A stretch of 46,542 nucleotides of DNA from Candidatus Saccharimonadota bacterium. Its GTDB lineage: Bacteria; Patescibacteriota; Saccharimonadia; Saccharimonadales; Saccharimonadaceae. Shown here piece by piece: positions 8,791-14,032 of this stretch (its first letter is position 1; each line of letters opens with the position of its first letter). The notes under the pieces were generated by a model. It saw only the letters and a program-made list of their open reading frames with translations. It was not told where the DNA came from and ran no database searches. The stretch is taken from positions 1 to 46,542 of the forward strand of contig JAEEUB010000005.1 of NCBI GenBank assembly GCA_016286785.1, written 5' to 3'. The position numbers were made by a program, and so were the translations under genes.

Positions 8791-10182
8791 TTATCTATCT
8801 TTTGACGAGACATCTCTAAAGGAAAAAGCAATAGGCGTACCAATTAGGGGGTATTTTTCGCGGATTTTACGTTCTAAGAATCTCTTCCACGACCAGTGCA
8901 GTAGCCCCAAATCATGGCCATACACGACGAACCAGGGTGGGCAGGTGTCGGTTTGTACCATGTATTTTGGCTTTGGTTTGGTGTTTTTGAGGCCGGCCGG
9001 AATATGAGAAGCGATGGCATCGTTTAAAATTTTATTGAGCTCCGAAGTTTTAATTTCTTGGTGGCGATTTTGATCGATTTCGCAGGCGAGCTCAAAGAGT
9101 TTTGTGACGTTTTTGCCGGTTTTAGAGCTAGTAATTAAGACTGGTGCGTAAGGCAAAAAGTCATAGTCGCGCTCCAAATCATTTAGAATTTCATCGATTT
9201 TTTCTGAGTCTTCTATGAGGTCTGATTTGGTAAGCACGATAATTATCCCTTTACCAGCGTCTACGATTTGTCCGGCCAAGGATTGATCTAATTTAGAATG
9301 TGGCTCTGTGGCATCAATTAAAAGTGCGCAAACATCAGACTCTTCAATGGCGGCGAGGCTTCTAATGGCGGAGAATTTTTCGATTCCTACTTCGCGTTTG
9401 CCGGGTTTTCTAAGGCCGGCAGTGTCTAGTATTTCTAAGTCTTGCCCGTTAAACTTAACGTTTACTCTGTTAATATCGCGCGTGGTTCCTTGCCTTGAGC
9501 TAACGATGGCTTGTTGCTTTTTTCCTAAGGAATTAAAAAGGCTACTTTTGCCTACGTTTGGCCTACCGATTAATGCGATTTTAAGATTCGTTTTGGAACT
9601 TACATCCGACTCGGGGGCGCGTCGCTCGCTCCCGTCGCCACGGGGCTCGCGCGCTAATCCTCGCCTTGCCAGGCTCCGGACCCCCCTTTGTTCGGACGTA
9701 AGTTTCAAAACCAAGTTTTTAAGTTCTTTAATTCCCTGCCCGGTAGTAGCGGAAGTGCGAAAAGTCTCACTTGGCTTAATGCCTAGTGATAAAAATTCTT
9801 CTGATTGAAGCGCCTCGCCTAAGTCCGATTTATTTAACACTAGCAGTACTGGTTTTTTAGATTTCAGGGCTTTTTTAGTGATTTCTTTATCGCGATAATC
9901 TGGATATTTGCTAGAATCTAGGGTGACCAAAATAATATCTGCAGTTTCAATGGCGTCTTCGATTTGTTCTTGGATGGAGGCCTCAAAATCGTCCGAAGGG
10001 TCCTTTAGGCCAGCGGTATCGATCAAAATAAAAGAATTGTCAATTGTGGCTACTACGTTGTCTCTAGTGGTGCCTTCTTCGCGAGCTACGATGGCGATGT
10101 TTTTTCGCGCTATACGATTAAGAAGGCTAGATTTTCCAGCATTGGTTTGTCCGATTAGTGCTACAATTGGCAAAGTTTTCAT
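8791..10182 (-). CDS. der: Ribosome-assembly GTPase Der (EngA) with an inserted linker
   Basis: 463 residues. Two tandem GTPase domains and a C-terminal KH-like domain, essential for 50S subunit maturation. First P-loop GQTNAGKSS (about 11-19) with DTAG and NKSD; second P-loop GRPNVGKSS (about 206-214) with DTAG and TKSD; KH-like end includes PPWFVVYGHD. Start at 10182 (MKTLPIVALIG) because the domain begins there; the longer frame adds 30 unrelated residues. A TATGAT box lies seven bases upstream and there is no Shine-Dalgarno. The linker between the GTPase domains (about residues 160-195, rich in R/E/G/S/A) is encoded by a GC-rich palindromic insert described separately. The protein is otherwise normal, so the insert seems tolerated. 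Confidence 0.95.
   Translation of the reverse strand: MKTLPIVALIGQTNAGKSSLLNRIARKNIAIVAREEGTTRDNVVATIDNSFILIDTAGLKDPSDDFEASIQEQIEDAIETADIILVTLDSSKYPDYRDKEITKKALKSKKPVLLVLNKSDLGEALQSEEFLSLGIKPSETFRTSATTGQGIKELKNLVLKLTSEQRGVRSLARRGLAREPRGDGSERRAPESDVSSKTNLKIALIGRPNVGKSSLFNSLGKKQQAIVSSRQGTTRDINRVNVKFNGQDLEILDTAGLRKPGKREVGIEKFSAIRSLAAIEESDVCALLIDATEPHSKLDQSLAGQIVDAGKGIIIVLTKSDLIEDSEKIDEILNDLERDYDFLPYAPVLITSSKTGKNVTKLFELACEIDQNRHQEIKTSELNKILNDAIASHIPAGLKNTKPKPKYMVQTDTCPPWFVVYGHDLGLLHWSWKRFLERKIREKYPLIGTPIAFSFRDVSSKDR
9597..9704. repeat. GC-rich palindromic element inserted in frame in der
   Basis: The ends are inverted repeats of 13 bases with one mismatch: AACTTACATCCGA at 9597-9609 and TCGGACGTAAGTT at 9692-9704. 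Between them the DNA is far more GC-rich than the flanks and includes G- and C-runs that extend the pairing. Length is 108 bases, exactly 36 codons, so the der frame is kept. It falls between the two GTPase domains, where extra residues can be tolerated. The layout resembles palindromic elements known to insert in coding genes (Rickettsia RPE type), but no second copy is visible in this window. Confidence 0.6.
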
Positions 10183-10258
10183 AAGTAATATCATAACATA
10201 TTTTTGCTTAATATGCCAGAGTCGGGAAACCTCGCTCTTCTTTGTTTTTCTAAAATAC

Positions 10259-10287
10259 TTTACAATCCACATCTAATTATATACAAT
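10259..10287 (+). promoter_or_regulatory. Promoter for the phase-variable FISUMP gene
   Basis: TTTACA at 10259-10264, 17-base spacer, TACAAT at 10282-10287. ATG at 10294 follows six bases later, the same geometry as the other probable leaderless genes here. This places translation initiation upstream of the (AT)11 tract. Confidence 0.7.
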
Positions 10288-10293
10288 AGGCTT

Positions 10294-12197
10294 ATGTTAA
10301 GGGTCACACATCAAAATATGCACGCTTCATATATATATATATATATATATCAGTAATCTTATCTAGCCTCACCCTTCTTTCTGCCTCATTTCTTTCCTCT
10401 AGTACTACTTTTGCAGATGATTCTGTTGTAGACCAAGTCAATATCACCGTATCAGAATCCTGCTCTATGACGGGTGTTGGTATGGACTCCCATACTGCTA
10501 CTATTACCAACGGTGCTTATCAAGGAGATATCGGTACTACTACCATTAATGTTTTCTGCAACGATAACAGTGGTTTTGCAATCTATGCCATTGGCTTTAC
10601 AGGAGATCAATATACAGGAGAAGACCATACTAAGCTAATTGGCGCATCAAACGGAGGAAAGATTACTTCTGGCACAGCTACGTCAGGGAGCACATCTAAC
10701 TGGGCCATGAAACTAAATACGGTATCTAGCCCTACTCCAGCCTACCCTATTACTCTAGATAATGGCTTCGGGGGCTACAGTACTGTACCAGATACATACA
10801 CTAAAGTAGCTCATAGAGACGCTGGTACGGATGTAGGCACCAATGCGGAGGGCTCAACTCTAACAACGACTTATGCTGCCTTTATGTCCGGCACTCAGGC
10901 TGCAGATACTTATACTGGTAAGGTGAAGTATACATTAGTGCATCCATCAGCTGAAACCCCATTAGCTCCTCAACCCACGACAGCAGGATACATTAATTAT
11001 TATGCTAATGCATCTACAGCAGAAGGTACTATGGGTAGACAATCAGCCAGTGACGGTAATACCGTAACCTTATTTGCTTCTAACTTCTCTAGGGATGGCT
11101 ATGGTTTTGCTGGCTGGTCTGATGCATTTGACTATACCACTAATCCCAACGCTAACTTCTATGGCCCAAATGAAGACATAGTAGTACCAGAAGGCACTTC
11201 AGCTAATGGTTTAGCCTTATATGCTGTCTGGATTAAATCTGAAGGTAACTTCCAAGATTCTACTAAGGTAGCCCAACTCTGTGGTATTGGTGGTACTGGA
11301 GGAAGCCTAATTGCTGCTACCTATAATAATGAGGATGACGTCGATGAATCTACTTGGTCTATCACTGCGAGACTCTCTAGTATTTCCGCTCTAACTGATG
11401 CAAGAGATAACCAAACCTATGCTATCGCCAGATTAACTGATGGTAAATGTTGGATGATAGAAAACTTGAGACTCGCTGATACCCATAAGGAGGGGAATAA
11501 TACCGTAGCTACAATTCTAACTACAAGCAATACCAATAACCCATTAAACGATGGCACAAACGTCACATTGAAGTATAATTATGTAGATGCTACAACTTAT
11601 CCGACTCTTTCTGCTACTAGTTCTGATGCTACTAGCTGGTGCACTACTAACTCAGCAGCATGCGATGATCAGTCTAGACTTAGAACTGATAATGCAGCTA
11701 ATCGCGCATCATACCAAACAACTGACAGCATGTCCACTAGCGCCAATCTATATTCCTATGGCAACTACTACAACTGGTATTCTGCTACAGCGGGTAATGG
11801 GACATATAGTGGATCTAGCGGTAATACAGCAGGTGACTTATGCCCAGCTGGTTGGCATCTACCTACCGGTACTGGTTATGGGGAATTTGGACTACTTAGT
11901 AATAGTTTGGGCGGATACCAGAATAATGGTGTGGCTCAAACCATGAATAGCTCTACTAACCCAACAGGAGCCATCATGTCTAAAAGAGAGAGGCATTTTC
12001 CAAATAACATTCTTTACTCGGGCAACGTGAATGGTGCTTCTCTTAACGATCGAGGTAGCTACGGCTACTACTGGTCCTCCACGGCGTTCTATAGCAACAA
12101 CGCCTACTACCTGAGCCTCAACTCCTCGTACGTCTACCCAAGTACGCTCAACTACAAGTACAACGGAAGGACACTGCGTTGCTTAGCTAGCACTTAG
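10294..12197 (+). CDS. FISUMP-domain surface protein, out of frame at an (AT)11 tract (phase-variable candidate)
   Basis: From the promoter-matched ATG at 10294 the frame enters an (AT)11 tract and stops at 10354-10356. The long frame begins right behind the tract. Without a start codon it reads a hydrophobic stretch (SVILSSLTLLSASFL, then SSSTTFADD), which is the rest of a signal peptide. One AT unit fewer joins both parts. In this assembly only an internal ATG at 10467 opens the body (576 residues), which would lack a signal peptide. The body has the shared beta domain (NWAMK, AADTYTGKVKYT), a Flg_new-like repeat (about 173-250 from 10467; YGFAGWSDAFD, ALYAVW), and a C-terminal Fibrobacter-succinogenes-type (FISUMP) domain (YAIARLTDGKCWMIENL, GNYYNWYSATAG, CPAGWHLPTG, YWSS, ending LRC). 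FISUMP domains are known retroelement targets. Confidence 0.75.
10329..10350. repeat. (AT)11 dinucleotide tract in the signal-peptide codons
   Basis: Eleven perfect AT units lie between the likely start codon at 10294 and the long open frame. Dinucleotide tracts change length by slipped-strand mispairing; loss of one unit or gain of two would restore the frame, and other changes keep it closed. Read in frame it codes alternating Tyr-Ile, which is compatible with a signal-peptide core. Confidence 0.85.
12063..12182 (+). other. Candidate DGR variable region at the 3' end of the FISUMP gene
   Basis: Starting at the codons for GYYWSSTAFYSNNAYY, codon choice changes sharply. All five Asn codons are AAC and eight of nine Tyr codons are TAC, with TCC, CTC, GTC and ACG common, whereas the upstream body prefers T- or A-ending codons. 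The stretch is dense in Asn, Tyr and Ser and ends in a conserved RTLRC. This is the expected look of a diversity-generating-retroelement target, where adenines of a template repeat (AAC/TAC codons) are mutagenised. No template repeat or reverse transcriptase is in this window. Confidence 0.5.
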
Positions 12198-12483
12198 GCA
12201 TAGTCTAGTTCGTTTTTCCCGAATCCCGGAATGCTCAGGGGCAATAAAATTATAAAAGCATAGGCTTTTCTAAATAGTTGCAAAACATTTTAACTCGTGA
12301 TAATAGTTTCCTCGGGTTGACTTCGGGGTTTAGTGGTCCAGCTGCAAGAGTAGTAATATTCGTGCTGTGTGAGGTAGCCATTAAACGGTATTCTAGGTAT
12401 CTAGGTTATCAGGAAGGAGTGATGAAATGACCATACAGATTAATCTGCTATGCATCATAGTTCCAAAGCGTAATCGCCGAATA

Positions 12484-12511
12484 AAAAAATCTAGCCGGTA
12501 AGCCCGACTAG
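12484..12511 (-). terminator. Intrinsic terminator, minus strand
   Basis: Nine-base-pair stem (TCTAGTCGG / CCGGCTAGA with one G-T wobble, best on the minus strand) followed by seven Ts. It would end a minus-strand transcript that begins downstream of the tRNA-Glu region. Confidence 0.65.
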
Positions 12512-12521
12512 AAACAACCCA

Positions 12522-12551
12522 GAAAAGCGTTTCCTAGAGGCGCTTTTCTCA
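12522..12551 (+). terminator. Hairpin, possible plus-strand terminator
   Basis: AGAAAAGCG and CGCTTTTCT pair across an 11-base loop and are followed by a moderate T-rich run. It may instead be the first hairpin of a minus-strand small RNA. Confidence 0.4.
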
Positions 12552-12583
12552 TATTTTAAGTATAACATATATTATAAAAAATA

Positions 12584-12599
12584 AGACCTAAAGGTCTAT
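12584..12599 (-). terminator. Terminator behind the duplicated tRNA end
   Basis: Minus strand AGACC-TTTA-GGTCT followed by TATTTTTT. It lies directly behind the second copy of the tRNA-Glu 3' end, so the tRNA-end-plus-terminator unit occurs twice. Confidence 0.55.
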
Positions 12600-12607
12600 T
12601 TTTATAT

Positions 12608-12625
12608 TGGTGATTCCGGCGGGAG
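12608..12625 (-). repeat. Perfect 18-bp duplicate of the tRNA-Glu 3' end
   Basis: The 18 bases at 12608-12625 repeat 12687-12704 (acceptor stem end, CCA and part of the T arm of tRNA-Glu) exactly, and the AT-rich bases just beyond the CCA are similar too. Beyond that the sequence does not fold as a tRNA. A duplicated tRNA 3' end is the usual footprint of a tRNA-targeted integrase (att site), but a simple local duplication is possible. Confidence 0.65.
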
Positions 12626-12659
12626 GAGATCTCCCAGGCGTCATCTTAAAAATAAAAAT

Positions 12660-12680
12660 AAGACGCAAGCGTCTTCTTTT
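12660..12680 (-). terminator. Terminator of tRNA-Glu
   Basis: AAGACG-CTTG-CGTCTT on the minus strand, followed by ATTTTTATTTTT, shortly after the tRNA CCA end. Confidence 0.6.
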
Positions 12681-12686
12681 TATTTT

Positions 12687-12763
12687 TGGTGATTCCGGCG
12701 GGAGTCGAACCCGCGATTTTCTGGATGAGAACCAGACGTCCTAGACCACTAGACGACGGAACC
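12687..12763 (-). tRNA. tRNA-Glu (anticodon CTC)
   Basis: Cloverleaf visible on the minus strand: acceptor GGTTCCG with CGGAATC, D arm with TAGTGGTCTAGGA, anticodon stem TCTGG/CCAGA with loop TTCTCAT (anticodon CTC, reading GAG), T arm GCGGG-TTCGACT-CCCGC, and an encoded CCA at 12689-12687. A TGT-TATAAT box at 12785-12780 lies 16 bases upstream. A copy of its 3' end sits at 12608-12625. Confidence 0.95.
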
Positions 12764-12796
12764 GTTTTGCTGTTTTATCATTATAACACACTTTTT

Positions 12797-14032
12797 CTAA
12801 TAATCAACGCTTCCATATTCTGGGATGGCGGAGACTATGGTTTGTCCTGGGGCTAATTTTATTTCATTCCCTTCTGAGTCGGTAAATTTGATTTGATCTT
12901 CACGCGTGGACTTTGTCCACTTACCGGGTATGGCTATGCCATTTTGAAAAATATAGGCATCGCCAGAACCAATCGTGGTAATATCTTCGTGATAATTATC
13001 CGAAGCTCTATGCTCTTTTACGATTATCGCAATCACTGTGGATGGCGACATGGTGGTTAGTTCGCAGATATCCTCTGGATTGCGTTCGCCAAGATCTTCT
13101 CCTGGGCAGGTATATATTTGATGCGCGCCAATACCGTAATTGCGACGGTAAGTATTGTTTTCTTGGTTATATTCATAGTTGACATTAAATATGGCTGAAG
13201 AACCAAAGTTAAAACTAATATTTGTTACTTTGGGAGTTAGCTCAGAGGTATTTTTGTTTGTGGGGGTGGTAATATTTAATATTTCCGTCGCTTGGCTTTC
13301 GATCCTGTTTTTGTTTGACTCTGTTGGCGTCATGCGGGAGAATCCTTTAGCATTTGAGGACGTTTTACCGGAATCATTGCTAAATCGTTTAAGATCTGAC
13401 GGGGTGGTAAATAGATTATTCCAAAGTCTAGTGCCATAAGTTCCTCGGTACATATAATTATAGTTTTCTGACAAATCAGAATAGCCACCGCTGGCTACTT
13501 CTCTCAATGCGTCATCGGCGCCACCGGCATGAACGATGGTGCAGTCGAACGGTGTGTCCCATTCTAGATAATATAATCTAAGTGAGCGGATTGGGCCAAT
13601 AACGGCTGATGATGGATTTTGAAAAATAGCAGCAAAGCGCGTAATACCGGCCTCGGCGATTGCTTCAAAGATAACACCGGCTTCGGTTAGGCCAGCTTGG
13701 GGCCTAGCCCCATCGGTGCCATTTGGTACCTGAATGCAGTAAATGGGAGAGTTTTTGAGTGAGGCCTCAGAAAGAACCTGTCCGGTTAAATCGCTATAAG
13801 TTTCACTAGAGTCTTTAGAGGAAGGAAGTATCGGATAGCTAAGGGCTTCGCTTTTAATCTGGGGTTTTAGGAGTGCATATGTGATGCAACCCATTCCCGC
13901 CGCAAAAGATACGATTCCGATAATTAAAAACACTAGCCAATCCTTTTTAGTTTTGGATGGTTTTTTTGTGGCGGCGTCTTTTTTTTCGTTTTTAGACTTT
14001 TCCACAAGTTCGATTGGTTTTTCTGGTGCCAT
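12797..14032 (-). CDS. DUF3048 (YerB-like) membrane-anchored protein
   Basis: 411 residues. Lys-rich cytoplasmic start, one membrane helix (about 32-53, WLVFLIIGIVSFAAGMG), then an extracellular part. Residues of about 95-240 match the DUF3048 / YerB pattern: SPIYCIQVPNGTDGARPQAG, GVIFEAIAEAGITRFAAIF, IGPIRSLRLYYLEW and VHAGGADDAL. The C-terminal half carries the second YerB domain (GAHQIYTCPG, GSGDAYIFQNG, PGKWTKS, TIVSAIPEYGSVDY). YerB proteins are secreted or lipid-linked in Gram-positives, function unknown. A GGAG site lies eight bases before ATG, so this gene has a leader unlike its divergent neighbour at 14144. Confidence 0.88.
   Translation of the reverse strand: MAPEKPIELVEKSKNEKKDAATKKPSKTKKDWLVFLIIGIVSFAAGMGCITYALLKPQIKSEALSYPILPSSKDSSETYSDLTGQVLSEASLKNSPIYCIQVPNGTDGARPQAGLTEAGVIFEAIAEAGITRFAAIFQNPSSAVIGPIRSLRLYYLEWDTPFDCTIVHAGGADDALREVASGGYSDLSENYNYMYRGTYGTRLWNNLFTTPSDLKRFSNDSGKTSSNAKGFSRMTPTESNKNRIESQATEILNITTPTNKNTSELTPKVTNISFNFGSSAIFNVNYEYNQENNTYRRNYGIGAHQIYTCPGEDLGERNPEDICELTTMSPSTVIAIIVKEHRASDNYHEDITTIGSGDAYIFQNGIAIPGKWTKSTREDQIKFTDSEGNEIKLAPGQTIVSAIPEYGSVDY

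Follow-up and report, generated by a model that had tools for sequence, protein, structure and literature searches.

The window, a stretch of 46,542 nucleotides, is contig C11 of a Candidatus Saccharimonadota assembly of 766,527 bases in 25 contigs (97.11% complete, 4.06% contamination). It carries a gene whose product has a predicted signal peptide and a C-terminal FISUMP domain (TIGR02145, E 1e-17), and the 3′ end of this gene is a candidate variable region (VR) of a diversity-generating retroelement (DGR); the coordinates are collected in Table 1. In an Rfam scan of positions 12150-12850, a tRNA alone scored above the gathering score. Upstream of the gene, a G+C-rich stretch of about 70 bases (9614-9690) is repeated at 83-90% identity at L069:3763-3834, L084:2815-2881 and G000:C23:21835-21903, the last in another contig of the window genome. 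This repeat looks like a short mobile element that has inserted into genes; it sits in the 8791-10272 ORF here and in a topoisomerase-like ORF (L069:2560-5046) of the sister species G165.

Table 1. Features of the FISUMP gene and its 3′ flank (window coordinates).
Feature	Coordinates	Strand	Evidence
FISUMP surface-protein gene	10294..12197	+	Translation; TIGR02145 and PF09603 matches; orthologue L069:10051-11940:-; frame test
(AT)11 tract near the 5′ end of the coding sequence, likely ON/OFF switch by slippage (assembled state OFF)	10329..10350	+	Frame test
FISUMP domain, predicted C-type-lectin-like fold	11391..12185	+	TIGR02145 on residues 367-631 of P0001
Putative DGR variable region (VR), enclosing 12063-12182	12011..12226 (about)	+	Backbone almost the same as in G165, with differences at template-A positions; both ends agree with those of TR/VR pairs in the genus
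VR 3′ end past the stop codon, site where the homing signal (IMH) would lie	12198..12226	+	23 bases identical with G165; IMH function inferred
Post-VR hairpin position of active DGR targets, weak here	12227..12300	+	Fold z-scores

An AlphaFold2 model of the FISUMP domain (pTM 0.82) was aligned by VIA-align with C-type-lectin-like chains at middling Z values of 4.5-7. Foldseek of the model against PDB returned zero matches at E <= 0.001, and a sequence profile of the domain matched no PDB entry. A C-type-lectin-like fold of the FISUMP C-terminus is predicted with moderate confidence, and its partner may be guessed, from the lifestyle of these bacteria, to be the host cell surface or phage. FISUMP genes form a multigene family in the window genome, and the gene portions 5′ of the VR have a mosaic appearance between paralogues. 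One FISUMP gene of this genome is apparently broken over the ends of contigs C6 and C25 (L025 start, L027 1-300), where the overlap differs (NGNTPGGFYYLNYKINND and NGNTPGGCYYLNYKINNH), perhaps because strains vary at this point.

The start codon at 10294 is out of frame with the gene body at the (AT)11 tract. Read from this ATG, the frame stops after 20 codons with 11 AT units, while it would stay open for 633 codons with 10 units and for 635 with 13. Judged from the sequence, the tract length would therefore switch the reading frame, as in a phase-variable contingency locus. Tracts of (AT)8-11 were also seen at the equivalent 5′ coding position in several FISUMP genes, including two of G165 (L206 at 1507 and L218 at 1510), and this common placement suggests that a phase-variation design may be shared in the genus.

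The original prediction placed a DGR variable region at 12063-12182 because of a switch in codon usage, and the switch is real. All five Asn codons of this span are AAC, and Tyr is encoded by eight TAC and one TAT, compared with AAC 19/AAT 28 and TAC 8/TAT 27 upstream. The NNC:NNT ratio was 32:13 from codon 574 on vs. 124:242 upstream (Fisher p = 2e-6), and the NNC fraction of 45-codon windows was at most 0.50 everywhere outside the tail and reached 0.875 within it. The RTLRC end, described as fixed, is only partly so, since G165 has TCA in place of its Thr codon ACA. Besides AAC and TAC, the tail is enriched in TCC, CTC, CTG and ACG, as would fit a G+C-rich 3′ end that was acquired recently and never hypermutated; this explanation is scarcely credible, however, since it does not predict the adenine-limited differences to the orthologue described below, and a template copied from elsewhere explains both.

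The tail was then compared with its orthologue in G165, the closest species in the genus, with 97% identity in a 722-residue control protein. The two genes were aligned codon by codon and the last 61 codons were taken as the tail; the comparison is one orthologue pair, and both genomes are MAGs. The tail contained 20 amino-acid-changing codons, none of which had a third-base change, whereas third bases were changed in 75 of the 119 such codons upstream (p = 3e-8). Silent differences were found in 4/41 amino-acid-identical codons of the tail vs. 149/423 upstream and 368/700 in the control gene. The sparing of third bases would be accounted for by copying from one template with errors at adenines.

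DGRs are common in the genus. RTs were detected in 60/99 genus genomes with PF00078, and DGR-type RTs in 96/174 with a DGR RT profile built in this analysis (A1); those adjoining FISUMP tails carry GNLTSQ or GNLSSQ and YVDD motifs. At seven closely examined loci the RT adjoins the tail of a FISUMP gene together with another copy of it, about 210-235 bases long, the template repeat (TR). In detail, the TR/VR mismatches that fell on template A were 30/30 in G166, 20/21 in G075, 21/23 in G113, 21/22 and 19/23 in G053, 29/30 in G033, and 25/27 in G063, that is, at least 90% in 6/7 pairs. The template copies translate as Asn-rich FISUMP tails, such as SGNVNGASINNRGSNGNYWSSTVNNSNNAYNLNLNSSNVNPGTNNNNKYNGRAVRC in G166, which resembles the window tail but has Asn at most variable places. 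The TR lies just 3′ of the RT gene, inverted, at L073, L077, L087 and L088, and upstream of an accessory gene at L071. The gene upstream of the DGR RT in G053 (L077:6065-7084:+) encodes an N-terminal helix-turn-helix (HTH_3) with an RstR-like match below the cut-off, and this accessory protein may also regulate.

As the window genome's own template was not available, the columns at which at least 6/7 of these TRs, from six other species, agree were used as a stand-in template. Differences between the window and G165 occurred at 27/47 A columns but only at 3/80 others, so with the six-species stand-in the variation is limited to template adenines, as in a DGR target. The original prediction expected an adenine bias among strains or metagenomic reads; such a bias is seen here between the two species, and the 3′ end can be read as a DGR variable region on two grounds: adenine-specific, third-base-preserving differences to the orthologue, and likeness to the TR/VR pairs of the genus. 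A history without any DGR, in which ordinary diversifying selection acted on exposed residues, perhaps together with gene conversion among FISUMP paralogues, could draw on the multigene family and on the mosaic look upstream of the VR. It is very improbable, as third bases would not be left untouched by such selection (0/20 altered tail codons vs. 75/119 upstream), the differences fall at columns that are A in independent TRs, and the limits of the block are those of DGR VRs.

These limits are wider than first marked: 12063-12182 lies inside the VR, but the block as a whole is larger. Near-identity with G165 starts at about 12011 and continues beyond the stop codon (12195-12197), which is followed by 23 identical bases and a few more nearly so, while 3′ of about 12228 the two sequences are unrelated. 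The place of the VR at the 3′ end of the gene is clear. Given the 368/700 silent differences in the control gene, the non-A backbone of the VR is much younger than the species split, so that both species probably had one template after parting. The young backbone would also fit an exchange of the 3′ end between the species by ordinary recombination, after which a DGR rewrote one or both copies. Such an exchange, which we consider rather unlikely, would need to coincide with the VR limits, and the adenine-limited differences would still require a DGR; it is a variant of the preferred reading, namely a DGR-written VR, and not an alternative to DGR writing.

The original prediction further expected a template repeat and a DGR-type reverse transcriptase in the genome. 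Neither was found in the 97%-complete, 25-contig window assembly: searches with PF00078 and the A1 profile detected no DGR-type RT, and the VR as query returned itself and weaker paralogue tails but no TR. The sister assembly G165 (96% complete, about 20 contigs) is likewise without RT and TR. The prediction was to be abandoned for a genome lacking both in which the region was invariant or varied without adenine bias; the assembly does lack both, but the region varies, and with adenine bias. In short, the FISUMP gene shows the feature that defines DGR targets, but the genome lacks what a complete DGR would need. The idea of one surface protein under both ON/OFF control and targeted hypervariation therefore stands in part, in that the (AT)11 switch is supported by the sequence, OFF as assembled, whereas a working device was not found in the window genome.

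As the assembly is fragmented, the absence of RT and TR is not proof. A complete, still working DGR whose RT and TR fell into an assembly gap would agree with the 25 contigs, with the FISUMP gene split across the C6 and C25 ends, and with several VR and RT matches of relatives near contig ends. We nevertheless regard it as improbable, because completeness is 97%, the sister assembly also has neither component, and about half of the genus genomes have no RT, including the well assembled G003 (7 contigs), which yet has a VR-like tail; the weak post-VR hairpin and the OFF frame in the window also speak against it.

A donor template was not found in the 174 genus genomes, the 394 family genomes or, by DNA search, the phage records. 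The 23-mer of the VR end revealed no donor template in viral_contigs, and none in genome_contigs, where CAMYUU010000003 was the sole match. A phage origin of this DGR group was considered and found unsupported, the viral-contig RTs being distant (at most 43% identity). Compared with the nearest foreign TR (G166), the window VR showed a weak adenine bias, with differences at 17/62 A vs. 23/142 other positions (p = 0.05; repeat p = 0.09), because such foreign templates have diverged at synonymous sites and many adenines are still present in the window VR; the comparison with the orthologue was therefore required. Two other tails of the window genome, at the C25 start and on C16, showed adenine bias vs. 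foreign TRs. The paralogue tails on C8, C23 and C4 and the longer FISUMP gene of C25 were also considered as recent VRs, but showed little adenine bias and were not counted.

Tails without a resident RT also occur elsewhere in the genus. Tails of the RT-negative genomes G159, G100 and G071 align with the G113 template, and their differences from it are biased to adenines (p = 2e-5 to 1e-4), so orphan tails are not unique to the window genome. In G100, which is without DGR-type RT, 61 FISUMP-like matches were counted; the single VR looked at there (L046) fits the G113 template with adenine bias.

The sequence downstream of the VR was evaluated for the hairpin that accompanies active DGR targets. 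The fold z-scores were -1.35 in the window and -2.75 in G165, which retains a 9-bp hairpin after the VR, as compared with -5.08 in G166 and -5.38 in G053. In a survey with groups labelled by locus and shuffles that kept base composition only, the window scored -1.0 and G165 -2.5, and RT-linked VRs had a median z of -5.9 (a set of 16, with at least one row, L095 of 423 aa, being the RT itself and not a VR) vs. -0.3 for template copies. A strong hairpin or cruciform just downstream of the VR is therefore not seen in the window. In the BPP-1 DGR the hairpin affects homing efficiency (PMC3240598), so its loss does not undo past writing. As assembled, the locus bears signs of retirement: the gene is off, the homing signal is weak, and there is no RT or template.

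Taken together, the block at 12011-12226 is, with fairly high confidence, the VR of an orphan DGR target that encodes the C-terminus, predicted to be C-type-lectin-like, of a FISUMP surface protein that is probably phase-variable; it is called orphan because neither RT nor TR is in the assembled genome. In the proposed mechanism, a DGR reverse transcriptase would have made an error-prone cDNA of a template repeat, the errors falling on template adenines, and this cDNA would have replaced the 3′ end of the gene, changing side chains of the C-type-lectin-like domain, which may bind a variable partner; production of the protein would depend on the frame tract. Since the non-A backbone is almost unchanged while the rest of the gene drifted, the writing would date from after the split from G165, and a single unseen template common to the two species was probably the source of both orthologue tails. 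The data do not discriminate between a DGR that moved from one species to the other and was lost twice, one that resides on an unbinned element, and a tail that was exchanged before being rewritten. Most likely, the orphan VR is either frozen, perhaps since loss of its DGR, or written from elsewhere, in trans, by an element absent from the assembly. Only tentatively do we entertain the broader idea that phase-variable FISUMP genes of RT-less Saccharibacteria are written in trans by an interspecies DGR, which would travel by transfer or reside on a mobile element that escaped binning; if true, a symbiont lineage would keep hypermutated binding tails without keeping the machine.

Surveys of targets adjacent to an RT miss genes like this one, and comparing third bases and the non-A backbone with a sister species offers a simple test of DGR writing in cases where no template is at hand. 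Should VRs of lost or distant DGRs be widespread in Patescibacteria, targeted hypermutation would extend further in these host-dependent bacteria than is now estimated. Frame slippage for ON/OFF control and DGR writing for specificity on one predicted surface protein would, if true, be a compact means of varying host-cell or phage recognition. In the literature searched, mostly without subscription papers, no paper mentions 'diversity-generating retroelement' together with 'FISUMP', and none mentions 'Saccharibacteria' together with 'Fibrobacter succinogenes major'.

As in the BPP-1 DGR of Bordetella phage (Mtd; Guo et al., 2011, PMC3240598), the VR lies at the 3′ end of a gene, here one for a predicted C-type-lectin-like domain, the block would run to a homing signal, and the RT-linked VRs of the genus are followed by a hairpin like the hairpin/cruciform 3′ of the phage VR; the window VR differs in having no strong hairpin, RT or TR, and several relatives differ in carrying the TR inverted just downstream of the RT. 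The nanoarchaeal DGR fragments (Paul et al., 2015, PMC4372165) likewise lie apart from a full DGR, and these authors consider that several genes may be served by a single DGR, or that RT/TR elements may move from locus to locus; in contrast, the orphan VRs described here occur in genomes without any DGR-type RT, and the inferred template would be common to two species. DGRs of the Patescibacteria/CPR are known as clade 2 (Roux et al., 2021, PMC8144416). Unlike those systems, the window genome has neither RT nor TR, and its target matches FISUMP models whereas the clade 2 targets are without other recognizable domains. The shared features are cellular DGRs in CPR bacteria, VRs at the C-terminus of proteins with a C-type-lectin fold, which is predicted for the window protein, and TR/VR differences limited to adenines, as in this genus.
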